This document shows, one piece after another, positions 1,887 to 46,015 of a DNA stretch of 47,651 nucleotides; positions within the stretch are counted from its first letter, which is position 1; the number at the start of each line of letters is the position of its first letter. The notes below the pieces were generated by a model that saw only the letters and a program-made list of their open reading frames with translations, had not been told where the DNA came from and did not search any database. The translations under genes were made by a program, and so were the position numbers. This DNA is from a virus, in IMG/VR virus record IMGVR_UViG_3300030688_001310, positions 1 to 47,651 of that record. One strand, 5' to 3'.

Positions 1887-1905
1887 AGTCACCTTTTTGT
1901 TGACT
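1887..1905. promoter_or_regulatory. 19-bp palindromic element, copy 1
   Basis: AGTCACCTTTTTGTTGACT. Outer arms AGTCA/TGACT pair perfectly around an A/T-rich centre. It lies 9 bases before the possible ATG at 1915. Confidence 0.75.
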
Positions 1906-1914
1906 CTCAGGTGA

Positions 1915-2403
1915 ATGGGTGCGAGTCGGTCGCATGATTGCACATCCTGCGTTCAGGGGATCAGCGCCTTGCCATTGCCAGCCATCCCGTTCGGCGACAC
2001 CTTCCTGGCGAACTGCACCTATCAGGATTCATCGGGCCAAGCGGTCAGTCTGACGGCCGCAGGTTTGACGGTCAGCGCGAAGATCGTGGCGCCGGATGGC
2101 ATCAACTCCTTCCCTGTGACGGTGGCCACCTCCGACCAGGATGCATCGCCCGGGCAGTTCACGATCACGAGTGAAACTTCCACTTGGGCAACCACGACAA
2201 ACCCGCCGCAGGATGGCCTGTCGCCCGATTGGATTCTGCTTGCGACTTACGGCATCCCTGCACCGATCGCCCCATTTCCGTTCGACAGCGATTGCCGCGG
2301 GAACTCCAACCCTCCGACGATAGGTGCCTGGCAACTGCGCATTTCCTACAAGGGCGCGCAGGGGACATTCAGCGCCGATCCGATCCTGTTCCGGTTGATC
2401 TGA
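1915..2403 (+). CDS. Putative small virion protein, Ig/BppU-like
   Basis: The product is beta-rich. It opens with a GDTF/ANCTYQDSSGQAVSL stretch, has a G-x-F-T-I strand pair, and ends in GAWQLRIS ... DPILFRLI. That layout resembles the immunoglobulin-like accessory domains seen in baseplate or tail proteins (BppU-N type), but the call is by general pattern only. ATG 1915 follows the 19-bp element. A TTG at 1969 in the same frame has a better ribosome-binding site (AGGGGA about 8 bases upstream) and gives a cleaner N-terminus (LPLPAIPFGDTF), so the true start may be 1969. The stop overlaps the next ATG (TGATG). Confidence 0.6.
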   Translation: MGASRSHDCTSCVQGISALPLPAIPFGDTFLANCTYQDSSGQAVSLTAAGLTVSAKIVAPDGINSFPVTVATSDQDASPGQFTITSETSTWATTTNPPQDGLSPDWILLATYGIPAPIAPFPFDSDCRGNSNPPTIGAWQLRISYKGAQGTFSADPILFRLI

Positions 2404-2564
2404 TGCCGTTCACCGTCGCCGTCACAACCGGCCGCTTCGTGACCCGGTCTATCCTGCAGCCCGTCAGCGCGATGGCCAACGTCAGCCTCAAAACGCCGAT
2501 CTCCATCACGCGGGTCGAATTGCCGACCGCTGTTGTCACCGTGGGTCAACCCCAGCCGCGATGA
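2403..2564 (+). CDS. Small hypothetical protein, 53 aa
   Basis: Begins by TGATG overlap with the preceding gene, so it is probably translationally coupled to it. The product is a short beta-rich peptide with many Val and Thr residues, including TRSILQPVSAMANVSL. No domain is recognisable. Its place behind a putative virion protein suggests a small structural or assembly role, which is inference only. Confidence 0.5.
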   Translation: MPFTVAVTTGRFVTRSILQPVSAMANVSLKTPISITRVELPTAVVTVGQPQPR

Positions 2565-2600
2565 TGCGCGGGGGTGGTCCATCAACCGAAAGGCCCACCA

Positions 2601-3647
2601 ATGCCCACGCCGCCGCTCACATTCGACGATTACCACGCCGCGATGGCGAAGCTCGCCGAATTTGACGGCAACCAAACCAGGGCGGCCGCAGCGCTGAACC
2701 TATCGCGCGCGGGTTTCCAGAACCGAATCAAACGCGGCGCGGCAATGTTTGACGGCCCGACGCCCGCAGTTGTGCCGGCCGAATTGCCGCAGCCCGATCT
2801 GCCGTTCGAGGAACGGCTCGAGATGAACATTCGCCGGAATGCTCAGCGGATCGCGCACGCTCAGGCGCAGTCCTGGCAGGAAGTCCGCATCCCGATCAGC
2901 GGGCCCTACGGGATCTGCTGGTTTGGCGATCCCCATATGGATGACCCGTTCTGCGATCTGGCGCTGCTGCGCGAGCACGGCGAGATCGTCGCCCGCACGC
3001 CGGGCCTTTACGGCGCCAATGGCGGCGACAGCATCAACAATTGGGTCGGCCGGCTCGAGAAGCTCCATGCTTTCCAGAACGTCACGCAGCCCGAGGCGTG
3101 GGAGCATGTCGACTGGCTGATGAACAAGCTGGGCATCCGCTGGCTGCTGTGGTTGCTCGGCAATCACGACGTCTGGAATTACGGCTATGACATTTTCACG
3201 CGCGCCAACCCGCAGAAGGTCCTGATGCGCGACTGGGATGCCAAGCTGCAACTGCGATCCCCATGTGGTGGAGTCTGCCGGGTTTGGGCCCGGCACGATT
3301 TCAAGGGCACCTCGATCTACAACGAACTCCACGGGCTCAAGCGGGCGGCCATGATGGACGAGCAATCAGATATCTACCTCGGATTCCATCAGCACACCTG
3401 GGCGACGGGGCAGGGGGAGTTGGCCGCCGGCCACGAATATACGCTGGTCCGCGCGCGGGGCTACAAGATGGTCGACGATTACGCGCTCAAGAAGCAGTTC
3501 GTGCAGCAGAAGCGCGGCCAGTCGATCGTCACGGTGATCGAGCCGCGCACAGATGGGGCGCCCGAAATCCACCTTTTCAAGAACGTGCAGCGTGGCGCGG
3601 ATTTCCTGACCCATCTGCGTCACCAAATTGGCAATCAGAGTCACTAA
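2601..3647 (+). CDS. HTH domain fused to a calcineurin-like metallophosphoesterase
   Basis: 348 residues from ATG 2601, chosen over an in-frame start at 2574 because AAAGG lies 8 bases upstream. Residues about 5-45 form a Fis/NtrC-type helix-turn-helix (NQTRAAAALNLSRAGFQNRI). The rest is a metallophosphoesterase with all main metal-binding motifs: D110-P-H112, GGD with D143, GNHD with N188 and H189, and H263-Q-H265. Such enzymes hydrolyse phosphodiesters on nucleic acids or nucleotides using two metal ions; the HTH suggests recruitment to DNA. The stop codon lies inside palindrome copy 2. The precise substrate cannot be read from the sequence. Confidence 0.8.
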   Translation: MPTPPLTFDDYHAAMAKLAEFDGNQTRAAAALNLSRAGFQNRIKRGAAMFDGPTPAVVPAELPQPDLPFEERLEMNIRRNAQRIAHAQAQSWQEVRIPISGPYGICWFGDPHMDDPFCDLALLREHGEIVARTPGLYGANGGDSINNWVGRLEKLHAFQNVTQPEAWEHVDWLMNKLGIRWLLWLLGNHDVWNYGYDIFTRANPQKVLMRDWDAKLQLRSPCGGVCRVWARHDFKGTSIYNELHGLKRAAMMDEQSDIYLGFHQHTWATGQGELAAGHEYTLVRARGYKMVDDYALKKQFVQQKRGQSIVTVIEPRTDGAPEIHLFKNVQRGADFLTHLRHQIGNQSH

Positions 3648-3657
3648 AAAGTTGACT
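3639..3657. promoter_or_regulatory. 19-bp palindromic element, copy 2
   Basis: AGTCACTAAAAAGTTGACT. It contains the stop codon of the phosphoesterase gene and precedes the gene at 3710, which has its own AAGGAG site. Confidence 0.8.
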
Positions 3658-3709
3658 GCAAACGACTCCCGAGACATACCGATCGCAGGTTGATTCGAAG
3701 GAGATCCGG

Positions 3710-3880
3710 ATGAAAAGTCGGATTTGGGTTGGGCCGCTGGGGCTGCTGCTGACAAGTTCGCCGGCGCTTGGTGTGTCCCGGGTGGTCGAACCCGTCGAGG
3801 TGCATGCCGAGATCTCGCCGGCCGAAGAGGGCCAGCCGCCGGTTATCCTCTCCCTGAGCCTGCTGGGCCGCTCCAAATGA
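3710..3880 (+). CDS. Small exported or membrane peptide, 56 aa
   Basis: A perfect ribosome-binding site (AAGGAG, 3698-3703) precedes the ATG. The first about 21 residues look like a signal peptide: MKSR, then a hydrophobic WVGPLGLLLTSSPALG stretch. A short acidic segment follows and the end is LSLSLLGRSK. No family is recognised. It starts a four-gene run whose first three genes overlap by ATGA. Possibly a periplasmic peptide made by the lysogen or during infection. Confidence 0.6.
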   Translation: MKSRIWVGPLGLLLTSSPALGVSRVVEPVEVHAEISPAEEGQPPVILSLSLLGRSK

Positions 3881-4577: not shown

Positions 4578-4588
4578 TTGGGCGGTCT

Positions 4589-4607
4589 AGTCACTCTTTT
4601 GTTGGAA
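4589..4607. promoter_or_regulatory. 19-bp palindromic element, copy 3
   Basis: AGTCACTCTTTTGTTGGAA. The right arm is degenerate and merges with the ribosome-binding site GGAAGGA of the BRCT gene starting at 4619. Confidence 0.65.
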
Positions 4608-4618
4608 GGAATCTAATT

Positions 4619-5320: not shown

Positions 5321-5323
5321 CCG

Positions 5324-5485: not shown

Positions 5486-5488
5486 CGT

Positions 5489-5520: not shown

Positions 5521-5524
5521 TTCC

Positions 5525-5543
5525 AATCACTCTTTTCGTGAGT
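5525..5543. promoter_or_regulatory. 19-bp palindromic element, copy 4
   Basis: AATCACTCTTTTCGTGAGT, eight bases before the ATG at 5552. No strong separate ribosome-binding site is visible, so the element covers the initiation region. Confidence 0.8.
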
Positions 5544-11837: not shown

Positions 11838-11856
11838 ACACACGTTAATGGTGATT
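11838..11856. promoter_or_regulatory. 19-bp palindromic element, copy 5 (degenerate)
   Basis: ACACACGTTAATGGTGATT, lying 44 bp upstream of the secreted-protein start. Its left arm deviates from the consensus. Confidence 0.5.
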
Positions 11857-11881: not shown

Positions 11882-11900
11882 AGTCACGTTTTACGTGATT
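11882..11900. promoter_or_regulatory. 19-bp palindromic element, copy 6
   Basis: AGTCACGTTTTACGTGATT. With copy 5 it forms a tandem pair in the divergent intergenic region, as expected for a bidirectional operator. Confidence 0.8.
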
Positions 11901-11937: not shown

Positions 11938-12120
11938 ATGCCACGTATTTCTGACCCGCATCCCGTGGATGCGAGGAAAAGCGATCTCGCTCAACTGGTT
12001 TCAGACGGCTTTTCTATCTCTGGGGCGGCCCAATGGCTCGGCCTCACGTCGCGCCGCGGATATCAGCTTTGGCAGTTGATTGTGGATGATCTGGCCAAGG
12101 ACGGCGGAAAGCCGTTTTGA
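11938..12120 (+). CDS. 60-aa helix-turn-helix protein
   Basis: ATG 11938 has GGAG six bases upstream. The product contains a homeodomain-like helix-turn-helix (LVSDGFSISGAAQWLGL followed by a second helix LWQLIVDDLAKD). It sits immediately downstream of the paired palindromes and is transcribed away from the conversion cassette, a typical position for an autoregulated phage regulator. It is my leading candidate, without proof, for the protein that recognises the repeated palindrome. Confidence 0.6.
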   Translation: MPRISDPHPVDARKSDLAQLVSDGFSISGAAQWLGLTSRRGYQLWQLIVDDLAKDGGKPF

Positions 12121-12124: not shown

Positions 12125-12143
12125 TATCACTAAAAGGGTGATA
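12125..12143. promoter_or_regulatory. 19-bp palindromic element, copy 7
   Basis: TATCACTAAAAGGGTGATA. Perfect arms; the outer base pair differs from other copies on both sides (TAT/ATA). It ends two bases before ATG 12146 and contains that gene's AAGG ribosome-binding site. Confidence 0.85.
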
Positions 12144-13252: not shown

Positions 13253-13271
13253 AATCACCTATAACGTGATT
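13253..13271. promoter_or_regulatory. 19-bp palindromic element, copy 8
   Basis: AATCACCTATAACGTGATT, perfect six-base arms, 28 bases upstream of the GapR-like gene start. Confidence 0.85.
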
Positions 13272-17297: not shown

Positions 17298-17531
17298 TCA
17301 GGCGGCCGGCGGCGCGCCGGAATTGTCATTGCGCACGGTCGCGATCAGCCCGCAGACGCAGGACGCGACGATCGCGAATTTGGAATATTGGGTTTGGTTG
17401 AAGCCGAGCACCCCGGCGACAGCAGCATATGCCGCCCACGACGAGGGTTGGTTCATCCTCTCAAGCGCGGGGATGATCCGCTGGCCTGCCGCTTTGAGAT
17501 CGGCGATGAGCGCCTGCTTCACGTTGGTCAC
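17298..17531 (-). CDS. Putative holin
   Basis: 77 residues from GTG 17531, overlapping the endolysin stop (GTGA). Two hydrophobic segments (about WAAYAAVAGVLGF and FAIVASCVCGLIATV) follow an amphipathic N-terminal helix, with a short C-terminal tail. Size, topology and position directly after the endolysin fit a holin, which forms the inner-membrane lesion that releases endolysin. Confidence 0.6.
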   Translation of the reverse strand: MTNVKQALIADLKAAGQRIIPALERMNQPSSWAAYAAVAGVLGFNQTQYSKFAIVASCVCGLIATVRNDNSGAPPAA

Positions 17532-18085: not shown

Positions 18086-18118
18086 ATAGCGGAGTCACTA
18101 AAAACGTGACTCCGCTAT
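18086..18118. terminator. 33-bp hairpin containing palindrome copy 9
   Basis: 13-bp perfect arms around a 7-base loop; on the minus strand it is followed by a run of T. It can act as a terminator after the gene at 18151-18474 and as a regulator of the lysis cassette. Confidence 0.6.
18093..18111. promoter_or_regulatory. 19-bp palindromic element, copy 9
   Basis: AGTCACTAAAAACGTGACT, perfect six-base arms, embedded in a longer dyad 28 bases upstream of the endolysin start. Confidence 0.85.
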
Positions 18119-33489: not shown

Positions 33490-33873
33490 TACGCCGCCGT
33501 GCCCTTCGAACGTGAGCATCGCGATCTTTTCGAGCGCCTCCAACTGCGCAGGCATCGGCAGAAGGTCGACCAGATTGACGTCCGGCTCATCGGCGCCAGC
33601 GGCAACGATCTGTCGAAAAGCTGCGGGAGCCACCTGGGCAATGGCTGTGATCATCACGGCGGTATCGGTCAGCAGACCCGGCACACCGCCTTTCGAGAAC
33701 CTGTCGAACAACAGGGCGAGAGGCTCGAAATTTGCTTGGACAATGGGTTGAATGTCGAGGAAGCCGAGCCCCCGAACGGAGAATGATTCCCCGTTCAGGA
33801 GTTCGACCTTGTCGGTGCGGCTTGTCAGGTGCGCAAGTCCCACGAGCCCGCTCCGATCAGACGCCGATACCAT
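33424..33873 (-). CDS. Tail assembly chaperone G-part
   Basis: 149 residues from ATG 33873, overlapping the tail tube gene by 17 bases. It is an alpha-helical protein in the position of lambda gpG, between the major tail protein and tape measure genes (KVELLNGESFSVRGLGFL, then MLTFEGHGGVKKVGEMVIRV). The GTA AAA AAA slippery site sits 20 codons before its stop. It acts as a chaperone in tail assembly and is not part of the virion. Confidence 0.75.
   Translation of the reverse strand: MVSASDRSGLVGLAHLTSRTDKVELLNGESFSVRGLGFLDIQPIVQANFEPLALLFDRFSKGGVPGLLTDTAVMITAIAQVAPAAFRQIVAAGADEPDVNLVDLLPMPAQLEALEKIAMLTFEGHGGVKKVGEMVIRVLDSLRVTMGSF
33484..33490 (-). other. Slippery heptamer A_AAA_AAA for -1 frameshifting
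   Basis: In the G-part frame the codons are GTA AAA AAA GTG; a one-base backward slip keeps full pairing in both sites and enters the open T frame. Confidence 0.75.
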
Positions 33874-34666
33874 CGACAAACATGAAGGTGCTAGCGCTGC
33901 TGAGCAGCAAGACCTTCAAGTCGAAGGTGATCTCGGCGAACTTGTCACCAATCGCGTCATAGGTGCCGTTGGGGACCAGCTTGACCCACGGCAGATACCA
34001 GACGTCGTTCGAGCCGGTGCTGTTGTCCGAGATATAGCGCACGGCGCCCTCCATCGGCTTGGTGCCGGCGGTGACCCGCGTCTTGGAAACTGCCAGGAGC
34101 GAATAGCCGACACTGAGCGTTTCCCCAGACGTGATCGAGCCGCCAGGAAGGGGCTGAATGCGGGCCATCGTATAGTCGACCAGGTAATCCACGCCTTCGA
34201 CATACGTCGTCGTCCCGGCCCCGTTCTTCACCACGGGTTTGGTCGCGGTGCTGAGCGACTGGACGCCCACCGGGTTGGCGCCGCCGGCCCGGCCGAGTTG
34301 ATAGTAGGCACCGAGAAGCACCGGGCCGATCTGCTCCGGGGCGATAGCGCCGGCCGCCTGCGTGATCGTCTGGGGACCACCAGAAGCGAAAAGGAAGCGC
34401 GAAAGCTGGTTCGCGTCCACGTTCTCGCTCTGGATCTGGCCCGATGCGTCCGCCTGGATCGCAGCAGATTCATCCATCACCTTCACGCCACCGGTCGACT
34501 GGTAGTGATCGGTCTGGGTCGTCTTGATCGCGACGTTGAAGCCCTTGCAGTCGCCGAGGAACATTTCGCCTGTGAGGCTCTGCGTTCCGGGGGCGAAGGC
34601 ATCAAAGAAGACCGCACCGCGGCCAGTCCGATAGTTGTTGACAACGGGAGTCAGAATGGAAGGCAT
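33857..34666 (-). CDS. Major tail (tube) protein
   Basis: 269 residues from ATG 34666, with AAGGAG eight bases upstream; an in-frame GTG at 34675 is less well placed. The product is beta-rich with a C-terminal region (KFAEITFDLKVLLLSSAST) fitting tube proteins. Its position just before the G/GT chaperones is that of lambda V. Palindrome copy 10 lies 22 bases upstream, suggesting separate control of this abundant structural protein. Confidence 0.75.
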   Translation of the reverse strand: MPSILTPVVNNYRTGRGAVFFDAFAPGTQSLTGEMFLGDCKGFNVAIKTTQTDHYQSTGGVKVMDESAAIQADASGQIQSENVDANQLSRFLFASGGPQTITQAAGAIAPEQIGPVLLGAYYQLGRAGGANPVGVQSLSTATKPVVKNGAGTTTYVEGVDYLVDYTMARIQPLPGGSITSGETLSVGYSLLAVSKTRVTAGTKPMEGAVRYISDNSTGSNDVWYLPWVKLVPNGTYDAIGDKFAEITFDLKVLLLSSASTFMFVDGIGV

Positions 34667-34685: not shown

Positions 34686-34710
34686 TGAAATCACCCATAA
34701 CGTGATTTCA
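34686..34710. promoter_or_regulatory. Extended dyad around palindrome copy 10
   Basis: TGAAATCAC/GTGATTTCA arms of nine bases with a 7-base spacer. The stop codon of the upstream gene (34708-34710) lies in one arm. Confidence 0.7.
34689..34707. promoter_or_regulatory. 19-bp palindromic element, copy 10
   Basis: AATCACCCATAACGTGATT, perfect six-base arms, upstream of the major tail protein. Confidence 0.85.
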
Positions 34711-35846: not shown

Positions 35847-36262
35847 CAGACACCGTTTCCGGGATAGACGATCTGGTCGCCATCTTCCGAGGGATAGGGC
35901 AGCCCATTGGCTGCGCCATTGATCATCGGGGCGATCTGCACATGCTGGAACCGGTCGTCCGGCGGCAGCGTATGATCGATGGTATAGGCTTCGCCCTGTT
36001 CGAATGACAGGATTGCCCCTTTGGTGATTTGGGCTGTCGGGATCGCATCCAGATCGAACACCGCCCGGGGCGCCAGATTCTCCATCTCGGCAGGGTAGAG
36101 GCGCGAGCCTTTTACGTCGCCCATGCGATCCCACCGGTTGTGCAAGCGCACGCGCAATAGGACAGGGGCGGCGGAAAGGGTTCGCAGGTACACAACCGGG
36201 ATCGCCATACGATGATGGAGATCCCGGCGTGCGTTCCGCTTAATGGTGCGGATTGGCACCAT
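35846..36262 (-). CDS. Head-tail joining protein candidate
   Basis: 138 residues, coupled by TGATG on both sides. It has a basic N-terminus (RTIKRNARRDLHHRM) and beta-rich middle (VLLRVRLHNRWDRM) with a C-terminal PYPSEDGDQIVYP. It lies between a small head gene and the Z-like gene, where lambda has FI/FII. No certain family. Confidence 0.5.
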   Translation of the reverse strand: MVPIRTIKRNARRDLHHRMAIPVVYLRTLSAAPVLLRVRLHNRWDRMGDVKGSRLYPAEMENLAPRAVFDLDAIPTAQITKGAILSFEQGEAYTIDHTLPPDDRFQHVQIAPMINGAANGLPYPSEDGDQIVYPGNGV

Positions 36263-36561
36263 CAGACGAGGTCGTCGTGTTCCGCCGGGGTGCCAGGCGC
36301 CGCAGGAGCAGCGGGGGCATCGGTGGAGGTGGGCTTCAAGTCCGCCGCAGCGGCCAGCGCCGGATCAAGCGTCTTCTCCGGATGGGTCGCCCGGTAGATC
36401 AGCACTTCTTCATCGGTCGGCTCGCGCACAGCACCGGCTTTCGTCAGATGACTGACGTGATCGGCCGCGACCAGATGGACCGCGCCGGGCTGCAGGATCT
36501 TCAGTTCCTTGGTCTCCGGATCCGAATGGTAGACCACATGCTTGATGAACAAAAGGGGCAT
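36262..36561 (-). CDS. Small head-region protein, 99 aa
   Basis: Starts at ATG 36561, two bases from palindrome copy 11; its ribosome-binding site (GAGG) lies inside the palindrome's spacer. The N-terminal half (FIKHVVYHSDPETKELKILQ, then AADHVSHLTKAGAVREPT) is a compact alpha/beta domain; the C-terminal half is Ala/Pro-rich. It comes right after the capsid gene and may be a head completion protein. Confidence 0.55.
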   Translation of the reverse strand: MPLLFIKHVVYHSDPETKELKILQPGAVHLVAADHVSHLTKAGAVREPTDEEVLIYRATHPEKTLDPALAAAADLKPTSTDAPAAPAAPGTPAEHDDLV

Positions 36562-36562: not shown

Positions 36563-36581
36563 AGTCACCTCAAAGTTGACT
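36563..36581. promoter_or_regulatory. 19-bp palindromic element, copy 11
   Basis: AGTCACCTCAAAGTTGACT. On the minus strand the spacer reads CTTTGAG and contains the ribosome-binding site of the gene starting at 36561. Confidence 0.8.
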
Positions 36582-36618: not shown

Positions 36619-37770
36619 TTACGAAGCGGTCACCGTCGCGCGGAACGTCGCGTTCGGGTTGACCGGCACGAACAGCGGGGCCGACTGGTGCAACAGGTAT
36701 TCGACGGCGGGGTCGCCCGGCTCGTACCAATTGCGCGGGAAGATATCGAGCGCCTGCCAGTTGGCATAGGGATCGACGATCGCCCCGAAGCAGCGATGGC
36801 CCGAGATCGCATCCGGATGGCCGGTAAGCACGATATCGGTGGGGGCAAGGAACGGCTGCTCCACACCGGTATCGTCAACATAGCTGTCCCGATACAGCCA
36901 GATTTCGACCACCGCGCCGGTGGGCCCACCAAAAGGCAGATCGCCAACCTTCGTGACGAACTCGCCCGACACCAGCGCACGCTGGACGTCGATCCCGGTA
37001 TTCGGGTAGAACTTGTTCATCATCGACAGGATTTCGGGATCGCTGCGCATGGCCTGCCACGCCGAGGTGCCGACGGTCAGCCGGATCGGGAAGCCGCCGA
37101 AACCGCCGGTGCCATCCGAATTGTAGGTCGGCTTCATCATCTGGTCAGCCCAGGTCTGCAGCATCGACAGGATGCTGATACCCGAAGTCCCCCAAAACGA
37201 GCCAGCGGTGAGGGCGACGCTCTGATTGGCGTTCCGGCCGAAGTTCACCGTGGTCAGCGGATATTCCTCGGTGCCGCCAATGGTCACCTGACCGTAGATG
37301 ATCGCTTGCGCGGCCATCCACTCCCAACGGCGCTGGATGGTGATCAAGTGCTGGGCGGTCATGCCCGCCTTGAGCGCATCGCGCCGCTGGGCGGGCGTCA
37401 GCGGCGTATCCGTGCCGAGGATCGCGTCGATGCCGGGGATCTTGGACATGACGCGCGCCGGATCAACGGCGTCCTTGACCTTGATATAGGCCGGCTTGAA
37501 GCGGTAGCCGTTCGCCCGATCGGTATAGACCGGCTTGCCGCTGCCGCTGGGCAGCACGAACGGCGCCAGCTTGCGATTCTGATAGGGCAGCTTCTCGAAA
37601 TCGATCCACTCGTCGATGCTGTTCACCTGGCGGTTGAACATGTCCAGCCAGTAGGTGAAGCGCGGCAGGACGTCGCGCATGACGCCGATCGACTTGCGCA
37701 GCGACCAGAGATTGAACGGGTTGGTGGCGGAATAGGGGGCGATCGTCACGCCCGTGGCACCAGTGGTCAT
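36619..37770 (-). CDS. Major capsid protein, lambda E-like
   Basis: 383 residues. The sequence fits the HK97-fold lambda E family: RFTYWLDMFNRQVNSIDEWI, later KAGMTAQHLITIQRRWEWMA and WYEPGDPAVEYLLHQSAPLF. It forms the icosahedral shell. Palindrome copy 12 ends 10 bases upstream and merges with the GAGGAG ribosome-binding site, implying specific control of this most abundant virion protein. Confidence 0.85.
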   Translation of the reverse strand: MTTGATGVTIAPYSATNPFNLWSLRKSIGVMRDVLPRFTYWLDMFNRQVNSIDEWIDFEKLPYQNRKLAPFVLPSGSGKPVYTDRANGYRFKPAYIKVKDAVDPARVMSKIPGIDAILGTDTPLTPAQRRDALKAGMTAQHLITIQRRWEWMAAQAIIYGQVTIGGTEEYPLTTVNFGRNANQSVALTAGSFWGTSGISILSMLQTWADQMMKPTYNSDGTGGFGGFPIRLTVGTSAWQAMRSDPEILSMMNKFYPNTGIDVQRALVSGEFVTKVGDLPFGGPTGAVVEIWLYRDSYVDDTGVEQPFLAPTDIVLTGHPDAISGHRCFGAIVDPYANWQALDIFPRNWYEPGDPAVEYLLHQSAPLFVPVNPNATFRATVTAS

Positions 37771-37780: not shown

Positions 37781-37799
37781 CCTCACGAAAAGAGTGATT
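37781..37799. promoter_or_regulatory. 19-bp palindromic element, copy 12
   Basis: CCTCACGAAAAGAGTGATT; the minus-strand arm GTGAGG is part of the capsid gene's ribosome-binding site. Confidence 0.8.
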
Positions 37800-37804: not shown

Positions 37805-38227
37805 TCAGGGCTGCGGCTGAATCGGGCGCCAGCGCACCGTGATGGTGGTGGGCGTCGGCGCACCGGCGAAGGCTGCCTGCTGGAACGCCTGCGTGTTGTA
37901 CGAAGCGTCGTAGACAAGGGCGTTCCCGTTGAAGCATCCCGAGAAGTAGACCGGAATGGATTCGCTCGAATCGCCAGCGGCCGTGACGATCGGCACCGAG
38001 GCGACGCCGATCGCCTGGGTGACGCCCTTCACCGCCGGAATAAGCTGGCCGCCCGCATTCAGGCCAACGACCTGAAACTGAGCGATCGTGGTGTTCGGGG
38101 CCACGGGGTAGGGATACGACTTGAGCGGGAGGTCCGACCCGGCGAGCAGAAACGACTGCAGCCAGGTATCGGTCTGCTGGAAGCTCGCCTGACCGAGAAC
38201 CGGATAGGGAATGGTAACCTGTGCCAT
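37805..38227 (-). CDS. Head decoration protein, gpD-like
   Basis: 140 residues from ATG 38227, with GAAGGA nine bases upstream; the ATG at 38236 is too close to that site. The gpD-like layout is seen in PYPVAPNTTIAQFQVVGL, a conserved Gly turn, and a late VRWRPIQP strand. It trims the capsid as trimers and stabilises it after packaging. Palindrome copy 13 lies 11 bases upstream. Confidence 0.8.
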   Translation of the reverse strand: MAQVTIPYPVLGQASFQQTDTWLQSFLLAGSDLPLKSYPYPVAPNTTIAQFQVVGLNAGGQLIPAVKGVTQAIGVASVPIVTAAGDSSESIPVYFSGCFNGNALVYDASYNTQAFQQAAFAGAPTPTTITVRWRPIQPQP

Positions 38228-38238
38228 TTGGCTCATCC

Positions 38239-38257
38239 TTCACGAAAAGAGTGACTC
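38239..38257. promoter_or_regulatory. 19-bp palindromic element, copy 13
   Basis: CTTCACGAAAAGAGTGACT; spacer identical to copy 12, overlapping the decoration gene's ribosome-binding site. Confidence 0.8.
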
Positions 38258-38271: not shown

Positions 38272-38763
38272 TCAGCGGGTGGGGCCGTCCTTCAGCTTTT
38301 GGGTGCTGCGGAGGCCGGGGATACCCATTGCGGCGGCGGCGCTCAGCGCGCTCCCGGCGTCATCGGGATCTTCAACCCGCGCTTCGGGGCCGCCAGGCGT
38401 GACGCCTGCGCCGCCGGTGGCGCCCATGGCCGCGGCGAAGTTGGAATTGGCGTGCGCGCTGACCGGCGGATCGGCAGCCGGGACCGCCGCAACCGGCGCG
38501 GCTGCCGACGGGGCAGGGGTTTCCGCAGGCAGATCGGCCATAAAGGACGCAGCATCCGCAGCGCTCATCGTCTGCTTGAATGCGATCTTGCGGGCGAGTG
38601 CGGGATGCGTCTGGGCTTCCGGGCTGTTCAGGATCGCGTCGATGCGGGTGCGTTCGGCGGTGGTGCCTTCGGCGACGCCGGCGGCGTGACCTTCGGCGCG
38701 CGCGGACGCGACGGCGGTATCATGGGCGGCCTGATCGACCGTCCCACTGCTCTGATTGGACAT
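38272..38763 (-). CDS. Nested scaffold protein (Nu3-like)
   Basis: An internal ATG at 38763 has GGAG about nine bases upstream and would give a 163-residue protein identical to the C-terminus of the S49 protease (MSNQSSGTVDQAAHDTAVAS onward). This is the lambda C/Nu3 arrangement, in which the separately started C-terminal part is the internal scaffold for prohead assembly. Ala-rich helices and Pro-rich linkers fit a scaffold. Confidence 0.7.
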   Translation of the reverse strand: MSNQSSGTVDQAAHDTAVASARAEGHAAGVAEGTTAERTRIDAILNSPEAQTHPALARKIAFKQTMSAADAASFMADLPAETPAPSAAAPVAAVPAADPPVSAHANSNFAAAMGATGGAGVTPGGPEARVEDPDDAGSALSAAAAMGIPGLRSTQKLKDGPTR

Positions 38764-39696
38764 TTCGGTTTCTCCATCGTCAGATGCGAGGTGATCGGCC
38801 AGAAATTTGGCCATGGCATCGCCCGGCGCGCCGCTGGTGTCAGCGAGACCGTTCGACAGGGCTTGCGCAGCAGTGAAAGTCCTACCCTTCGTGTCCCGAA
38901 CGGTCGTCTCGTCCATGCTGCGATTCCGGGACACGAGGCCCACGAAATGCTGATAAAGTTCGTCGACGCTGGCTTGCATCCGATCCCGATGATCGTCGCC
39001 GAGCGGGGCATAAGGGCTGCCTGCGGTCTTATCGCCACCCTCGGGAGCCGAGATCAGGGTCATCTTGACCCCAGCCTTGTCCATCGCCTTGGACACATCC
39101 ATGTGTCCGGTAACGACACCCACCGAACCCGCCCCGCCGGTGCGCGATACCGAAATGCAATCGGCCGGGGTCGCCAGGCTGTACGCTGCGGAATAGGCCG
39201 GCTCCGCGCTGGCGAGTACGGGCTTCGTTTTGGTCGCGACCATGTGGTCGACGAGATCGAAATTGCCGGCGGCGTGACCACCACTAGATGAGATTGAAAG
39301 ATGCACAGCCTTCACATTGGGATCGGCCATGCCGCGGTCCCATGCGCGCGAAAGGTACTGGTAACCCGTGGCCCAGGGGGTCGAATAACTGAAGCCGTTC
39401 AGAAGTGTGCCAGTCACCGGAATGGTGAGCACACCATCCTGCACATTATACGGACGGTACTGCGCGCGCCAATCATCGGCCGCAGGCCAAAACCCATCAT
39501 CGGTACTGCCACCAGCGGCGAGCATCTCAAGTCCATGGTCCATAATCGCCAGCTTTTGCGAGCAATCGGCGAGCCACGAGGCTTGGTCTGCGGCAACCAA
39601 TGCGACCGAGCCAGAGAAGGACGAGAGGAAAGCATCAACGCCCACGGGCACCTCCCGCGGCTTGCTTTGAAATGCAATCTTTGTGGCGAGTGTCAC
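38272..39696 (-). CDS. Head maturation protease, S49/SppA-like, with scaffold tail
   Basis: 474 residues from GTG 39696, which lies inside palindrome copy 14. An in-frame GTG at 39645 has a much better site (GGGAGG) and would remove 17 residues. The protease part is S49-type: VHLSISSSGGHAAGNFDLVD, then the catalytic A-Y-S-A-A-Y (S169 counted from 39696) and a downstream Lys region (KAGVKMTLISAPEGGDKTAG). The C-terminal about 160 residues are an Ala-rich scaffold. It cleaves capsid components during head maturation, as lambda gpC does. Confidence 0.8.
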   Translation of the reverse strand: MTLATKIAFQSKPREVPVGVDAFLSSFSGSVALVAADQASWLADCSQKLAIMDHGLEMLAAGGSTDDGFWPAADDWRAQYRPYNVQDGVLTIPVTGTLLNGFSYSTPWATGYQYLSRAWDRGMADPNVKAVHLSISSSGGHAAGNFDLVDHMVATKTKPVLASAEPAYSAAYSLATPADCISVSRTGGAGSVGVVTGHMDVSKAMDKAGVKMTLISAPEGGDKTAGSPYAPLGDDHRDRMQASVDELYQHFVGLVSRNRSMDETTVRDTKGRTFTAAQALSNGLADTSGAPGDAMAKFLADHLASDDGETEMSNQSSGTVDQAAHDTAVASARAEGHAAGVAEGTTAERTRIDAILNSPEAQTHPALARKIAFKQTMSAADAASFMADLPAETPAPSAAAPVAAVPAADPPVSAHANSNFAAAMGATGGAGVTPGGPEARVEDPDDAGSALSAAAAMGIPGLRSTQKLKDGPTR

Positions 39697-39709
39697 GCAA
39701 AAGTTGACT
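39691..39709. promoter_or_regulatory. 19-bp palindromic element, copy 14
   Basis: TGTCACGCAAAAGTTGACT, between the portal and protease genes; it covers the possible GTG at 39696. Confidence 0.75.
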
Positions 39710-39779: not shown

Positions 39780-41417
39780 TCATCCATTGCTCTTGCCTTT
39801 CGCCTTCCCACCCTGGAAACCGCTGGCGCTCTGCCCGCTGTCTTGCTGGCCAAGTGTGCCGGTGGTGGCGTTCATCATGTCGGACGACACGTTTTGCAGG
39901 ATGCCCAACTTGTCCATCATCTCGCGCTCGCGCTGGATCTGGGCGAACAGCTTGCGCCAATCCATACCGAGGCGGGCCGCCTCTCGCTGATAGCTCGAGA
40001 TGCCGAAAATAATGCGCTGGATCGCGGCCTGCGTTTCCTTAAGCTCATCTACCTGGCCACGGCTCGCACCAATCCATTCGGCCTGCGTGTATGCGTCGAA
40101 GAACAGGCCGAGCCGCCCGTTGGCATCATAAATCGACGGGCACTTGCGGGTCAGCGACGTGATCTGGCCTGCGTTGACGGCTTCCTCGAACCACAGGCGG
40201 TATATCTGGTTGGCGAAAGCGTCGGTGCCCCGCCGCTTCTTGGACTGCATGCCCTTCCACGTCTCGACCGCTCCCGCGCGGAACGAGGCATAATTGACAT
40301 GGCTATAGTCCCGCGAAAGCTGCTCATAGCTGACGCCGAGGTTGGCCGAGAGATAGCGCAGCAGGGACGCTTCAAAGTTCGTCCCCATCGCATCGCTGCC
40401 GCCGGCCGGACGAAGTTGCAGCTTCGTCCCAGGGAACAGATGGGGGATTTTCACCCCGTCGATCGCGATGTTCTTGGCGCCCTTCGCGTAGGCCCCCACC
40501 GCCGCGAGATAACCTTGCGCGTACTGGGTGATCATCTTCTCAAACGCGACTTCCGAGACGTTGCCGCCCCCAAGCTGTGTCATCACCGTTTCACTCGGCA
40601 AATCGGATTCAATCGTGGCCGCATACGTCGCGTTGACCACGGCATTCTGCAGCACGACGTCCCGATATCGCTTCGTCATCCGCATCTCTTTGAGTGCGGA
40701 AACCATGGTGGAAACGCCGCGCGATTGATCGACGCGCCAGCGATCGACAATGTGGATGACCTTCGGGCGCCCCCAGGGCTCACGGGCAGGCACCCGCTGC
40801 CAAGTGTAGGCGTCGATGCTGGCGATCGAGGAAAAGTCAACGGGATGGGCCTTGCGGATATGGTATCCGATCGGCACCCCATCATTGTTCTTCTCGACCC
40901 CGCCGCGCAGGTTCGGGTTATCCCACTGGCCGTAAGGGTTCGACAGCCGGTCAGTATCGATCATCTGGATCGCCGTGCCGAACGGACGCCCATCGCTCAT
41001 CCACTCGGACGAGGCGAGGATCTCGCTGCCCGACACCATCAGGCCGGCAGCCATGCGGACCATCGACGTGAAGTCGTGGGCCATGGTTTTATCGATCCAA
41101 TGGCTGGGGCTATCGGCCCAAACCTGGAACTTCGATTCAACCTCGCGCTGGAATTCCTCGGCCCATGTGGAATCCAGCCCCAGCACCTCGAGATTGGGGT
41201 GGCAGTTCAGCAGGTAATGCGATCCGACAATGTTGTCTTTGTGGATCTCGGAACCAGCGAACACGTAGGAGTCGTTGCGGATGCTGTCGCGCACGCGGGC
41301 GTCCAGCAACGGTTTATCGTTCAGGATATCGAAATCGGCCGAGGTCAGCGATGGCTGCCACAAGGCCAGGGTCTCGTCGAAACGCTGGGCGCCCTCATAG
41401 GCACCGCCGACCATCAT
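39780..41417 (-). CDS. Portal protein, lambda GpB family
   Basis: 545 residues from ATG 41417. The open frame continues to 41498, but that ATG lacks a ribosome-binding site, whereas 41417 has AGGA ten bases upstream and lies 21 bases after palindrome copy 15. The protein then begins MMVGGAYEGAQRFDETLALW, as usual for the family. Further features are DYSHVNYASFRAGAVETWKG and WFEEAVNAGQI. Twelve copies form the vertex through which DNA enters and leaves. Confidence 0.85.
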   Translation of the reverse strand: MMVGGAYEGAQRFDETLALWQPSLTSADFDILNDKPLLDARVRDSIRNDSYVFAGSEIHKDNIVGSHYLLNCHPNLEVLGLDSTWAEEFQREVESKFQVWADSPSHWIDKTMAHDFTSMVRMAAGLMVSGSEILASSEWMSDGRPFGTAIQMIDTDRLSNPYGQWDNPNLRGGVEKNNDGVPIGYHIRKAHPVDFSSIASIDAYTWQRVPAREPWGRPKVIHIVDRWRVDQSRGVSTMVSALKEMRMTKRYRDVVLQNAVVNATYAATIESDLPSETVMTQLGGGNVSEVAFEKMITQYAQGYLAAVGAYAKGAKNIAIDGVKIPHLFPGTKLQLRPAGGSDAMGTNFEASLLRYLSANLGVSYEQLSRDYSHVNYASFRAGAVETWKGMQSKKRRGTDAFANQIYRLWFEEAVNAGQITSLTRKCPSIYDANGRLGLFFDAYTQAEWIGASRGQVDELKETQAAIQRIIFGISSYQREAARLGMDWRKLFAQIQREREMMDKLGILQNVSSDMMNATTGTLGQQDSGQSASGFQGGKAKGKSNG

Positions 41418-41438
41418 GTCGGGCCCATCCTGCCGGGG

Positions 41439-41457
41439 GGTCACGAAAGAAGTGACT
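41439..41457. promoter_or_regulatory. 19-bp palindromic element, copy 15
   Basis: GGTCACGAAAGAAGTGACT. It would lie inside the portal frame if translation began at 41498, but upstream of the preferred start at 41417. Confidence 0.8.
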
Positions 41458-41501
41458 TGCGGGGGGCCGATCAGGTCATGATCTTCCTGGGTGAGCATCG
41501 C

Positions 41502-41717
41502 TTAGAACCAGGGCCGCATGGGACGATTGACCCGGCTATGCGGGTTCAATTTGTCCTCAAGGGACGTAATGTAGTCTTGCAGCTTATTGGCGTTAACCTG
41601 CGTATATTGCACGGTTTCGCCGTTCTGGTCCTTGACCATAACCACCGAGCGGCCGGTCATCAACAGATGATAGGCCTCACGCGCTTCCGACAGCAATTGG
41701 GCAATCGTGCTCTGCAC
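41502..41717 (-). CDS. Head-tail connector, gpW-like
   Basis: 71 residues from GTG 41717 with AAGGAG eight bases upstream. The pattern (IAQLLSEAREAYHLLMTGRS, VMVKDQNGETVQYTQVNANK, then LQDYITSLEDKL) matches lambda gpW, which attaches under the portal to complete the head. It lies between terminase and portal as in lambda. Palindrome copy 16 lies about 47 bases upstream. Confidence 0.85.
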   Translation of the reverse strand: MQSTIAQLLSEAREAYHLLMTGRSVVMVKDQNGETVQYTQVNANKLQDYITSLEDKLNPHSRVNRPMRPWF

Positions 41718-41729: not shown

Positions 41730-43817
41730 TTACGCCAATTGGGAAGCGAGACTTTCTAGGCTAATATCACTCTTTTGGTGACTGTCAAACGGCTTGGCCG
41801 CATTTTCGGCGAACACAAGATCATTCTGCTCCCAGCCATCGGCCCAGCCAGGGGGATATTCCCAATTGATATGATCGAGGTTGGGGGAGACCTGGCGCCC
41901 GTTCAACGCGACGGAATAAGCGTAATAGAGCAGATCCCATGCCTCGTTGCGCCGCGACCCGATTTTTATCCAGCCCTTGTCCGTTCGCGTTTCGGCGCAA
42001 AGCTGGGAATACAGCCAGTCGGGCATCCAGTGCGGAAAGTTCACCATGCCACCGCCGGGTGTCTCGCGGCCAAGCCGATTTGCCGCGACGTCCTTCATCA
42101 GGTTCGAGTTGATGAACAGCACTGGGATATCGCCGCGGGCGAGCGCCATGCGATCCTTCTTCTGAGAGTCCGGGTATCCGACGTGGACGCGCGGCGCGGA
42201 TTTGCTCGGCTCACCCTTGAGCAGTTGGAACCGGATCGAAGCCTGATCCTCGCGGGTGTCCCGCAGCTTGCGCCAGAACTGGTATGCGTTCGCGGTGACG
42301 CCGGCCTTGCCGCCCGAGTCACAACCGATCGCCTTGACCGACATGCGCCGGCCCGACCCATCCGCGAGTGGATAGGAGCGCTCGATCACTTTTTCTATCA
42401 GGACATCCCAATCTTCCAGATAGGCCCCCGGGTCGAGCAACTCGCGTTCTCCGCGATCGTTGATGCGGGTCTCTGACCGGGTGATGCGATCGGAATCGAC
42501 GATCCAGACATCGCCCCCTTCGCCAAAACCATGCACTTGGTAGACGAATGCGCTTTTCTGGATATCGACGGTGGTGATCAGAAAGCGCACGCCCAGCGGC
42601 ACGGCGGGGTCGTCTGCGGTGCCACCCCAATCTTTCGCGCGCGCCTTGAGATGCTCTGGCAGACGCTCGAGCCGAGACGCTTGGGGAATATAGGCATCAC
42701 CCTGATCGGTGTTGGTGGTGACCTTGAGCGATTCTTCAGACCCAGTGTTCTCGAAATCCTGCTTGGCTTGCAGGTATTTGAGGACCAGCGATGTCCAATC
42801 CTGGAATGCTGCCGCCGGCCCCTTCAACCAGAAGCTCGAGATATCCGTGCGGCGCGGGCGCCCGACGATCTCGCCATCGGGTTGCCAGATCATACCATCC
42901 TTGATCCACCGGCCAGCGTTGTTCAGTTCACGCTTCAGCGCCGGGGGAATTGGGTAACCGCAATGGGGGCAGGGGAGGGTGACCTGCTCAGCGATTTCCA
43001 GCAGGTCGATAGTGTCGATGTCGGGGTAATCGAACATCGAAAAATTGGCCTCGAACTTCTCGTTGCACTGCGGGCATGGCCAATACCAGCGGCGGCGATC
43101 ACCGCGGTTATAGAGGGCGAGAATTCCGTCAACAGGGGGTGCCTCATGCGCGGATTTGGCCAGCCAGTTGGGGTCCTTGATCTCGAACCCGGGCGAGGAC
43201 TCCGCGACGCACATTCCGAACCGCTTGAAGGTCGTGGCGCGCTTTCGGGCCAGATCGTAAGGGTTACCTTCGCCGTCGACGTCCTGCGTCATGCGGTCGT
43301 AATCCATCAACCACAGGCGCGGGACAGTCTTGCCCGATAGCTCATTGATGGTCGGCCACTTGATCAGCAGCCGCATTCCCGACTTGAACCACTTGTCGAA
43401 CACGTTGTCGTTTTGCCGGCCGGGGACCAGCAATTCGCCCAAGGCCTTGGAATGGCGGAAAGCGCGTGCAAGATCGCCGAGAGACCAGTCGCGGGCCGTC
43501 GCTTGCGTCATGTGCAGCAGCATCATATCTGCCGGATCGCACTTGGCAGTGTGCAGCAAGTAATTGAAAAACATATCAGACTTGCCGGTACGCGCCGGCC
43601 CGGCAAAGATCATGCCGGTGAAGTCCAACGAGGTGGTCTCGTTCATCGGTTCGACGAGATATGGGGCAAACGTATTGTCCCAGTAGCCGACGAACGACCC
43701 TTGGTTGTTCAGGAAGCGATAACGCTCCGCGCACTCAGCCACGGTGACGCGCTCAGGCGGCCGAAGCATGCTCGCCGCCTGAGCGATCAGATGCTCAAGG
43801 GAGACATATGCCCCCAT
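41730..43817 (-). CDS. Terminase large subunit, GpA family
   Basis: 695 residues; start by TGATG overlap with the cytosine methyltransferase gene. The packaging ATPase motif GPARTGKS is at residues 73-80 (K79), and LWLMDYDRMT is a likely Walker B region. A Cys cluster follows (CPQC and CPHC, about 45 residues apart). The C-terminal nuclease region contains TTVDIQKSAFVYQVHGFGEG and late GCDSGGKAG. It cuts concatemers and pumps DNA into the prohead. Its tail end contains palindrome copy 16. Confidence 0.9.
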   Translation of the reverse strand: MGAYVSLEHLIAQAASMLRPPERVTVAECAERYRFLNNQGSFVGYWDNTFAPYLVEPMNETTSLDFTGMIFAGPARTGKSDMFFNYLLHTAKCDPADMMLLHMTQATARDWSLGDLARAFRHSKALGELLVPGRQNDNVFDKWFKSGMRLLIKWPTINELSGKTVPRLWLMDYDRMTQDVDGEGNPYDLARKRATTFKRFGMCVAESSPGFEIKDPNWLAKSAHEAPPVDGILALYNRGDRRRWYWPCPQCNEKFEANFSMFDYPDIDTIDLLEIAEQVTLPCPHCGYPIPPALKRELNNAGRWIKDGMIWQPDGEIVGRPRRTDISSFWLKGPAAAFQDWTSLVLKYLQAKQDFENTGSEESLKVTTNTDQGDAYIPQASRLERLPEHLKARAKDWGGTADDPAVPLGVRFLITTVDIQKSAFVYQVHGFGEGGDVWIVDSDRITRSETRINDRGERELLDPGAYLEDWDVLIEKVIERSYPLADGSGRRMSVKAIGCDSGGKAGVTANAYQFWRKLRDTREDQASIRFQLLKGEPSKSAPRVHVGYPDSQKKDRMALARGDIPVLFINSNLMKDVAANRLGRETPGGGMVNFPHWMPDWLYSQLCAETRTDKGWIKIGSRRNEAWDLLYYAYSVALNGRQVSPNLDHINWEYPPGWADGWEQNDLVFAENAAKPFDSHQKSDISLESLASQLA
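41765..41783. promoter_or_regulatory. 19-bp palindromic element, copy 16
   Basis: TATCACTCTTTTGGTGACT, within the last codons of the terminase gene and upstream of the gpW-like gene. Confidence 0.8.
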
Positions 43818-44887
43818 CAGATCAGATCCTCGTCGCTTACAAGCTCAAGGCGAGCAAGATCGCCAATCGCCTCAACTGCGGAGAGGATGAACGCCATTGC
43901 TGCGGGCGCGACGATCGCGTTGCCGGCACCTTTGAGGAGCCCTTGGCGCGATTTGCCTTCAAAGGTGCCGCCGCTATCCAATCGGAAGGCAGCCCCATCA
44001 ACCAGAGGGAATGTGCCGGGTTCAACTGGCCGCCACTTTCCATCCCGGCATCCGAGCCAGTCAACATCTCGCCAGAAACCGTTAGTCGGGCCGGGGTCGC
44101 CAGATGCGTCGCTACCGAAGTCAACGTGTCGAACTTGCCCCTCGACCACCGGGCCCCCGAGGACTCCGAGTCCTCGCTGCGTGTGGTCGGCCGGCCTGCC
44201 AATACCACCAATTCGTTCAATGGTGGCCCCTTCGCTCCCCGATCGTGCGGCCCCGCATTCGGTCGGCCCTTCCAATCCCTGGCCTGTGGACATGGCCAAC
44301 CGGCCAATGGCACCGTCTCTGGGAGCGCCATCGCGTTTTTCCGCGGCGACACCAGACCGCCCTTGATTGAATCGCTCACCAATGGAGTAGGCCACCCAGT
44401 AGTTCCGGTCTCGGATGTGCGGCGCGCCGATGCCCGCAGCCGGAAACGGGACACACCCGAAGGCGTAGTCCAAGGTTTCCAAGTCAGCGTGTACAAGGTC
44501 GACCCAAACTTCTGCGTTCTTGCTCGCAACCTGCTCTCCAGCAACGATTGCAGGACGGCACTGTTGGATGAGCCAATACCAGGTCGGCCACAAATGCCGC
44601 TCGTCAGCAAACCCATCTCCCTTGCCTGCCGCGCTGAAAGGCTGGCAGGGACAGGATCCTGTCCAGATGGGAGCGCTGTCTGGCCAACCAACGGATCGGA
44701 GAGCAAAAGACCAGACGCCGATCCCGGCAAAGAAATGGCATTGGGTGAATTCTCGCAGGTCATCAGGGCTGACGTCCTCAATTGATCTGTTGTCAACATA
44801 GCCGGGCGCAATCAACCCACGCGTGATTAGACCGCGAAGCCACTCGGCCGCATGGGGATCGAACTCATTATAATAGGCCCACGCCAT
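43817..44887 (-). CDS. DNA (cytosine-5) methyltransferase with DEDLI tail
   Basis: 356 residues. Motifs in order: [12 protein letters not shown] (SAM binding), [14 protein letters not shown] with catalytic C81, EQVAS (motif VI), IRDRNYWVA (motif VIII), a recognition region ending [20 protein letters not shown], and GNAIVAP (motif X). It methylates cytosine at C5. It is placed between the small and large terminase genes and coupled to both by TGATG overlaps. It ends VSDEDLI. Almost all of it is overlapped by another long same-strand frame (43837-44799) that also looks conserved. Confidence 0.85.
43837..44799 (-). CDS. Alternative-frame ORF inside the C5-methyltransferase gene (WPTP-type)
   Basis: About 320 residues from ATG 44799, in another frame of the same strand. 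I recognise its features from proteins annotated near C5 methyltransferases: [17 protein letters not shown], then [24 protein letters not shown], and [20 protein letters not shown], which recalls a C-terminal motif of cytosine methylases. The same DNA encodes YWVAYS and RDGKWRPVE in the methyltransferase frame. Long shadow frames are common in GC-rich DNA, so length is not evidence; only the family resemblance supports it. Whether it is translated is unknown. Confidence 0.35.
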
Positions 44888-45675
44888 CAGATCAGATCCT
44901 CATCTTCCGGCAAAAGAACTGGGTCCGGGGCAATCTGATTAATGATGACTTCGGGGTCTTTGATGGAACTCGGAGTCTGCTTACGTCCCGGCAGCGAGAC
45001 CATTTGCTGATAGATTTCGTCCATCAGCCCATCGACCATTACCTGGAATTTGGCCCGGGCTTCCGATGGCATTTCGCCATCTGGATCAAGATTATCGACC
45101 CATAGTTGCATGGATCCCTTGATCGTCTTGAACATTTCGGAAAGTACCGCGAACACCGCATCGGTTTTCCAGAGTTCGCCAGCGTTCTCTTCCCAGATTT
45201 GCCGTTTGCGCATTGCTGACCAGTAGGTGTCCTGCAATTGGACCGGCATGTCGCTGGTACGCAGACCGCGCATCCAGCGCGCAAATTTGTCGGGATCCGG
45301 GGGTGCCAACAGCGTGGTCGCCTGGACGAAGTCGAACAACTCGCGGTTGCCCTTGCTGATCGCGAGTGGCTTCAGGCCCGCCAGGCGCTTCCGAACGGTG
45401 CGACTGTCCACGCGAAAGGCTGAAGCGAGCCAAGCGATATTGACGCCCGACGACAACGACTCCGCGCGCACTGCGAATGTGCGGACCTGTTCCTCATCAA
45501 CGTCGTCGCCCATGCGCGCGAGGATGCGCTCCATGCGATCGGGGCGCTTCGACGGCGCGGGCATGCCGTCAATATCTACTTCCGGGAGGGAATTTTTGCG
45601 CGGGCGGCCGCGACCTCTTTTGGGGAGAGGATTCGCAACAGCCCAGTCGACGGCCTCGTCATCCGGTGACGGCAT
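44887..45675 (-). CDS. Terminase small subunit, Nu1-like, with DEDLI tail
   Basis: 262 residues from ATG 45675, overlapping the AlpA-like gene by 17 bases; the frame to 45732 is not needed. It has an AT-hook-like KRGRGRPRKN near residue 20 and a helix-turn-helix (VNIAWLASAFRVDSRTVRKR) about residues 75-110, then a helical C-terminus. It recognises the packaging site and recruits the large subunit. It ends LPEDEDLI and is coupled to the methyltransferase by TGATG. Confidence 0.7.
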   Translation of the reverse strand: MPSPDDEAVDWAVANPLPKRGRGRPRKNSLPEVDIDGMPAPSKRPDRMERILARMGDDVDEEQVRTFAVRAESLSSGVNIAWLASAFRVDSRTVRKRLAGLKPLAISKGNRELFDFVQATTLLAPPDPDKFARWMRGLRTSDMPVQLQDTYWSAMRKRQIWEENAGELWKTDAVFAVLSEMFKTIKGSMQLWVDNLDPDGEMPSEARAKFQVMVDGLMDEIYQQMVSLPGRKQTPSSIKDPEVIINQIAPDPVLLPEDEDLI

Positions 45676-45862
45676 CGGCGATCCGATCGCTGATCCACCG
45701 TTCGATCTCAGTTTTCCGCCAGACGGAAACACGGCCGAGTTTCAGCGGTTTGGGGAAGCGCTTTTCATCGATCAGGCGATAAATCATGCTGCGTCGGTAT
45801 CCGACACACCGGGACACGTCCGGCAAACGCATGAGGGTTTCGGCCAACATGTTTTTGACCAT
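45659..45862 (-). CDS. AlpA-family transcriptional regulator
   Basis: 67 residues from ATG 45862; ATG 45850 is an alternative. The longer frame to 45886 would run through palindrome copy 17. The sequence MRLPDVSRCVGYRRSMIYRL, then DEKRFPKPLKLGRVSVWRKT and EIERWI, is a MerR-like winged helix of the AlpA family, which often activates excision or controls integrase in temperate phages. It sits next to the integrase control region and directly downstream of a palindrome. Confidence 0.8.
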   Translation of the reverse strand: MVKNMLAETLMRLPDVSRCVGYRRSMIYRLIDEKRFPKPLKLGRVSVWRKTEIERWISDRIADAVTG

Positions 45863-45881
45863 AGTCACCAAAAAAGTGACA
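45863..45881. promoter_or_regulatory. 19-bp palindromic element, copy 17
   Basis: AGTCACCAAAAAAGTGACA, abutting the preferred ATG of the AlpA-like gene (45862). Confidence 0.8.
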
Positions 45882-45955
45882 CGCAACCTATTTATCTACG
45901 CTCAAAAATGGGCTATAGACTGATTCGCGCTAGCAGCGCATCCTCTCCCGAACTA

Positions 45956-45997
45956 GGCCACCAGAGCATGCCCCCGCTCTGGTGGCCTTTCTTTTTT
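45956..45997 (+). terminator. Strong rho-independent terminator, plus strand
   Basis: 12-bp perfect stem GGCCACCAGAGC/GCTCTGGTGGCC with an 8-base loop, followed by TTTCTTTTTT. No protein gene precedes it on the plus strand within reach, so it may end a small RNA starting near 45890 or read-through from elsewhere. Confidence 0.8.
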
Positions 45998-46015
45998 ATC
46001 ACCTTTTAGTTGACA
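45997..46015. promoter_or_regulatory. 19-bp palindromic element, copy 18
   Basis: TATCACCTTTTAGTTGACA. Its right arm supplies TTGACA, the -35 element of the promoter at 46010-46038. Confidence 0.75.

Follow-up and report, generated by a model that had tools for sequence, protein, structure and literature searches.

Here we describe an array of palindromes in a virus record, IMGVR_UViG_3300030688_001310, whose 47,651 nucleotides were analysed as a whole (hereafter the window). A 19-bp palindrome is present in 18 copies in this 47.6-kb stretch (Table 1). The copies are probably operators of a temperate Casjensviridae-like phage, bound by homodimers of a CI-like repressor (here termed REP) that would silence the prophage gene by gene. 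Matching sets of sites occur in related phages together with a CI-like repressor gene; the sites are therefore most likely the switches of one repressor.

All 18 copies reported in a first-pass annotation, made from the sequence alone, were located; the one given as 38239 starts at 38238 when placed in register. Exact TCAC-N7-GTGA dyads number 13 in the window (the first-pass annotation had counted 11, with fewer than one expected by chance), against an expectation of 0.67, and other spacings of the TCAC/GTGA dyad occur 0–3 times each. Two of the 13 (27554 and 39414) are not among the 18 copies, and both lie within genes and have poor flanks. A symmetric matrix made from the 18 sites gave 19 hits at a score threshold of at least 14, 18 of which are the sites themselves, whereas Markov-shuffled sequence averages 0.2. 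Because the matrix was built from these sites, their own scores are inflated; a fair test of the array comes from the comparisons with shuffled sequence and with other spacings. Scanned against shuffled and against coding sequence, as had been proposed, the array held up. The consensus RRTCAC/GTGAYY, said to fit every copy, proved too strict, since one arm is of the TTGA type in six sites (1887, 3639, 4589, 36563, 39691 and 45997). In these mixed sites the TTGA arm is always the right one on the plus strand, whatever the gene direction (two-sided p ~0.03).

The sites are closely tied to gene starts. According to the gene calls made in this analysis, the window is 94% coding (non-coding fraction 6.2%), and 16 of the 18 site centres are non-coding (p ~7e-18). 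Nearly all sites lie 1–75 nt 5' of a start codon, many of them at 1–12 nt, and none is found in a convergent gap. The two in-gene sites are each accounted for by a nearby start. The site at 41765 lies in the 3' end of the terminase gene, 47 nt ahead of the next start. As the match to the portal family begins only at residue 29, the site at 41439 probably precedes the true portal start; the longest-frame start of the portal gene (39780–41498, minus strand) is probably wrong, and Met28 (~41417) agrees with that match as well as with the operator. When 12 phages were pooled, 133 sites fell in codirectional gaps, 26 in divergent gaps and 0 in convergent gaps. The median distance to the next start over pooled phages is 34 nt. 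Integrase control, also attributed to the sites, did not stand: none directly precedes the integrase gene, and the sites at 45863 and 45997 precede AlpA–TerS.

The array is conserved in related phages. A terminase search returned 49 viral loci, mostly at 39–59% identity, one of which is a 100% identical fragment of the window's own phage. Dyads were then searched blind, over whole contigs and with no motif supplied. This recovered TCAC-N7-GTGA in contigs G014 (8 copies) and G015 (11), and TCAAC-N5-GTTGA or TCAA-N7-TTGA in G003, G005, G018 and G019; G025 carries 13 copies of TCAAC-N5-GTTGA. The 19-bp frame is thus kept at ~50% terminase identity, with drifted half-sites. Iterated matrices placed the sites of relatives mostly in intergenic sequence, 5' of starts, and often at the same junctions: ahead of the adaptor gene that separates terminase from portal (window and 14 relatives), ahead of the major tail gene (window and about ten relatives) and ahead of AlpA in 7 of 7 phages with a profile-recognised AlpA; relatives in which a site precedes AlpA are G003, G014, G015, G022, G025 and AchV4. 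All eight site-bearing phages that have a Cro homologue carry sites at the Cro junction. Sites also stand at the REP gene junction in relatives. Conservation in relatives, which the first-pass annotation had named as a check, is therefore seen in both frame and junctions; the sphingomonad host that it assumed was not confirmed. The array is also found in gammaproteobacterial relatives (Stutzerimonas), and no comparable array was found in seven relatives (G004, G006, G007, G008, G011, G012 and G016). Other enriched dyads in relatives (ACCT-N11-AGGT, TCGGA-N6-TCCGA and ACTGA-N7-TCAGT in L173, L180 and L201) are perhaps other operator sets, and G003 has a second repeated palindrome, AAGT-N1-ACTT (14 copies against 0.9 expected; L052–L054).

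REP is a protein of ~220 residues in complete relatives (Casjensviridae such as Achromobacter phage AchV4, and the Bradyrhizobium prophage G022), with its own operator upstream; its helix-turn-helix (HTH) was assigned by HTH_3 matches in relatives. Its homologue in phage AH2, gp70, was reported to be CI-like and similar to CI of phage 186, and AH2 gp77 to be Cro-like (PMC3483164). The CI/Cro-type arrangement, an HTH repressor and a Cro-like gene each with an operator, is found in relatives; the window lacks both genes. REP was present in 6 of 6 relatives searched, is encoded by five contigs of the TCAAC type (G003, G005, G013, G018 and G019) and was not found in the array-free contigs. A profile search yielded 80 REP loci, many of them enriched in CAAC-N5-GTTG, and at 44 distinct loci REP is preceded by a good dyad. 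Records that carry REP have 2.8 dyads per 10 kb and the remaining records 1.4 (p=2e-7); control dyads do not differ. Among the REP-less records of highest density are the window, G014 and an artificially cut AchV4, all of them incomplete. TCAC-type operators accompany a REP HTH subgroup with the pattern 'L-G/R/K-W-F' (L119, L120, L127, L130, L132, L133 and L136), a single clade in which the pattern was noticed post hoc, in the table also used for the residue test below; this pairing agrees with recognition of the site by REP. A specificity residue following 'PR' in the HTH was also considered as a correlate of operator class and was rejected (no association; Fisher p=0.57).

In an AlphaFold model of REP (mean predicted local distance difference test score 90), a helical HTH domain forms the N-terminal part and an alpha-beta domain the C-terminal part. 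Foldseek placed PD-(D/E)XK-fold enzymes, I-Ssp6803I and the Holliday-junction resolvase Hjc, at the top with modest E-values (best 4e-4, only one match <0.001), and matched the HTH part to ImmR and P22 c2. Among 66 aligned REPs (family alignment A3; see also the locus L259:8089-8850, minus strand), G025 alone keeps the D-E-K triad (PD..IEVK), and the other copies have lost at least one of D, E and K, the D being kept by 52 of the 66. Because the triad is mostly lost, the domain is likely to be catalytically dead in most copies. A wider scheme can be put forward only tentatively and may well not hold: a repressor family built from HTH_3 and a decayed PD-(D/E)XK domain would silence whole prophages by roadblock at some 15–30 palindromic operators, the nuclease-like domain would sense DNA damage or ends for induction, and operator and repressor specificity would co-diverge into immunity groups across Casjensviridae.

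The absence of REP from the window is probably explained by where the record stops. The phage belongs with Casjensviridae by its TerL, 55% identical to that of AchV4, which is classed there, and by head–tail genes syntenic in relatives. The window is 47.6 kb long, whereas complete genomes have ~57–62 kb and a replication block; it has no recognisable primase, polymerase, replicative helicase, Cro or REP gene. It is a virus record without host contig and ends exactly at gene boundaries: a start codon stands at base 1, shortly ahead of the HerA-like gene, and the integrase start codon (47651) closes the record. We take it for a provirus record that was trimmed and lacks the Cro-to-REP end; the shortfall in size and genes does not count against relatedness, because the window is so read. 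Along G022 come, in turn, integrase, site, AlpA, TerS, TerL, head, tail and other-strand early genes that include a HerA homologue, and after these a large gene in the primase position, Cro, a partner gene, further early genes and REP. Cro and then REP lie there ~16–17 kb past the HerA gene, and REP ~59 kb from AlpA. The complete AchV4 genome, with primase, Cro, exonuclease, polymerase, helicase, REP, excisionase, endolysin, integrase, AlpA-like regulator and TerS in succession, shares this circular order. On this reading the window has no REP because the record stops ~17 kb short of that prophage end; G014, which is integrase-first like the window, likewise has none. The first 43 bases of the window had no exact match in viral contigs that would extend it leftwards.

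In a lysogen, operators spread over nearly all transcription units would be bound by the REP homodimer, and probably also by its Cro-like partner. REP bound just 5' of start codons would silence one gene after another; the likeliest means is an obstacle to elongating RNA polymerase within operons, in the manner of a stoperator, and loss of REP on induction would free all modules together. What the analysis shows directly is the sites, where they stand and how they are conserved, the half-site logic, the link with REP and the operator ahead of REP in relatives; we infer that REP binds the sites in this phage, that it represses and that it acts as a roadblock. Among 145 pooled sites, neither a -10 box at a constant distance nor AT-rich flanking sequence was seen. 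The majority are internal to operons and lack promoter signals, and this favours, although only modestly, a putative roadblock over local promoters. Classical operators over local promoters, with REP controlling many small promoters, are a rather unlikely alternative, for which the C1 operators of phage P1 offer a precedent. Sites do cluster near starts, some of them in divergent gaps, and some arms contain TTGAC, which resembles a -35 box; yet many sites stand so close to the start codon (1–12 nt) that they leave no room for a downstream promoter, and most are inside codirectional operons, besides lacking the -10-like element and AT-rich flank. The sites as -35 boxes in their own right were also considered and rejected, with no -10 found at +17.

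Several observations weigh against the REP operator model. REP is absent from the window, so that the HTH of this phage's own copy is out of view. In G015, whose sequence spans the helicase–AlpA slot, no REP is detectable but there are a Cro-like gene and 11 exact sites, so that Cro alone may be a user of the sites. AH2 has REP but only ~2 recognisable sites; the operator may therefore have drifted, or the array may not be universal. Promoters are weakly conserved in these hosts, which makes a missing -10 box weak evidence for a roadblock. Neither REP nor an integrase was recognised in G015 (L061–L064), possibly a natural virulent derivative. A mainly lytic use of the sites, by which the Cro-like protein or another lytic regulator would time expression, draws on G015, where a Cro-like gene adjoins a site, and on the sites at every Cro junction noted above. 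We consider it improbable, as site density tracks the presence of REP and Cro homologues are also found in relatives without the array.

The binding factor suggested by the first-pass annotation, the 60-aa HTH protein (HTH60) or AlpA, is very improbable. Two sites stand upstream of each of these genes, and AlpA is preceded by a site in the six relatives listed above; however, HTH60 has no relative in related phages, and AlpA was not found in the site-bearing G005, G013, G018 and G019 and is itself a target. REP has its own operator in relatives and its prophage end is missing here, so the binder is most likely REP (and Cro). We also give little credence to RNA hairpins at ribosome-binding sites, although the sites stand directly ahead of start codons. 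Arm complementarity at the variable outer positions, compared within each phage, equals that of shuffled half-sites (0.51 versus 0.49 and 0.44 versus 0.46; 158 pooled sites), so that the earlier impression of outer bases changing together is not borne out. The arms vary independently, and the sites are therefore DNA half-sites for a dimer; the lack of compensatory change largely refutes hairpins, and the local RNA is no stabler than shuffled sequence in three of four folded sites. A host regulator such as CtrA is equally hard to credit. CtrA boxes, with a 7-bp spacer, lie 5' of phage genes in some alphaproteobacterial phages (PMC9437464), and the spacer and position here are alike. The arms, however, read TCAC/TCAA rather than the TTAA of TTAA-N7-TTAA, half-sites change with the REP subgroup between phages, and the array extends to the Stutzerimonas relatives.

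Table 1 Probable operators and associated genes in the window
Feature	Coordinates	Strand	Position relative to genes	Remark
Operator	1887..1905		9 nt ahead of gene 1915 (+)	matrix scan
Operator	3639..3657		between codirectional genes (one ends 3647, next starts 3710)	matrix scan
Weak operator	4589..4607		ahead of gene 4619 (+)	one good arm, score 14.4
Operator	5525..5543		ahead of gene 5552 (+)	matrix scan
Operator	11838..11856		divergent gap, gene 11793 (-) / HTH60 11938 (+)	matrix scan
Second operator	11882..11900		same divergent gap, 11793 (-) / 11938 (+)	matrix scan
HTH60, 60-aa HTH protein	11938..12120	+		candidate binder of the first-pass annotation; no relatives in related phages
Operator	12125..12143		overlaps ribosome-binding region of ACP-like gene 12146 (+)	
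Operator	13253..13271		ahead of GapR-like gene 13300 (+)	also in G003, G022
Operator	18093..18111		ahead of endolysin gene 17528-18064 (-)	
Operator	34689..34707		ahead of major tail protein gene 33857-34666 (-)	conserved junction
Operator	36563..36581		ahead of gene 36262-36561 (-)	matrix scan
Operator	37781..37799		ahead of major capsid gene 36619-37770 (-)	matrix scan
Operator	38238..38256		ahead of gene 37805-38227 (-)	matrix scan
Operator	39691..39709		ahead of protease gene 38272-39645 (-)	matrix scan
Operator	41439..41457		ahead of portal gene, probable true start ~41417 (-)	
Operator	41765..41783		terminase 3' end, ahead of head-tail adaptor gene 41502-41717 (-)	most widely conserved junction
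AlpA-like excisionase/regulator (PF05930)	45659..45862	-		target of sites
Operator	45863..45881		abuts candidate AlpA start codon (ATG 45862, minus strand)	
Operator	45997..46015		5' of AlpA	19/19 bases (21/21 with flank) identical to site before AlpA in Bradyrhizobium prophage G022

Beyond the operators, the window holds an ACP-like gene (PF00550; 12146–12436, plus strand), whose ribosome-binding region is overlapped by a site, and the HerA-like helicase gene (PF05872; 318–1544, plus strand), with a homologue in the G022 prophage. Between the terminase subunit genes lies a probable C5 cytosine methyltransferase gene, recognised by eye (43817–44887, minus strand), with homologues in G015, G025 and G027 and partial frames in G014 and G018. 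A very stable tRNA-like hairpin (46298–46396; z -6.9) stands between integrase and AlpA; its outer stem is 15 bp long and it has a T-arm-like loop. It was not called by ARAGORN, and Rfam gave no match at gathering score in the window, this hairpin included.

Dispersed repressor operators are already known from L5 and SPbeta. No report of an operator array in Casjensviridae was found in the open-access literature searched, whose coverage leaves out most subscription-journal papers, and the string 'palindrom' is absent from three papers, which deal with AH2, Rhodobacter capsulatus phages and Mesyanzhinovviridae. The array would represent a second, unrelated dispersed-operator system in a widespread Gram-negative phage family, with palindromic sites and an identifiable repressor. 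It would explain how temperate Casjensviridae relatives could keep all modules silent, and its visible divergence in specificity would provide a testable set of immunity groups. From the sites alone, one could recognise a genome as temperate and locate its repressor.

Dispersed-operator silencing has been well studied mainly in cluster A mycobacteriophages. In phage P1, many C1 repressor operators are likewise scattered over one prophage; unlike the present sites they are asymmetric and lie over promoters, and the repressor is unrelated. The first-pass annotation had likened the array in principle to L5 stoperators, as phage-wide binding sites 5' of genes, and the matrix scan, placement and relatives support this well. 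In cluster A phages of the L5 type, one immunity repressor serves many genome-wide sites, mostly not associated with promoters (PMC6550527). The window, too, has many sites genome-wide, and the pooled set shows no promoter-like element at a fixed distance; the consensus drifts between relatives in both systems (PMC6550527). By contrast, L5 stoperators are asymmetric and oriented with transcription, and the repressor is described as monomeric with two DNA-reading domains (PMC9283540); the window's sites are palindromes with independent half-sites, and the candidate repressor combines HTH_3 with a nuclease-like fold. Corndog of cluster O has 34 dispersed 17-bp palindromes, suggested to bind dimeric regulators, but about one-third lie in coding regions, the sequence is different, the binder is unknown and no lysogeny is known (PMC4351075). 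The T1-like phages TLS and Stevie carry ~16–18 intergenic repeats 5' of start codons, likened to stoperators, but these are 21-bp asymmetric direct repeats in virulent phages with no known repressor (PMC11447400, PMC4319613). In SPbeta, as proposed here, a repeated intergenic prophage element (SPBRE) is bound by a master repressor, MrpR, that has the fold of a DNA enzyme without its catalysis (PMC10516654). The SPbeta motif is 15 bp long, the fold is that of a tyrosine recombinase and the phage infects Bacillus; homology is not claimed.

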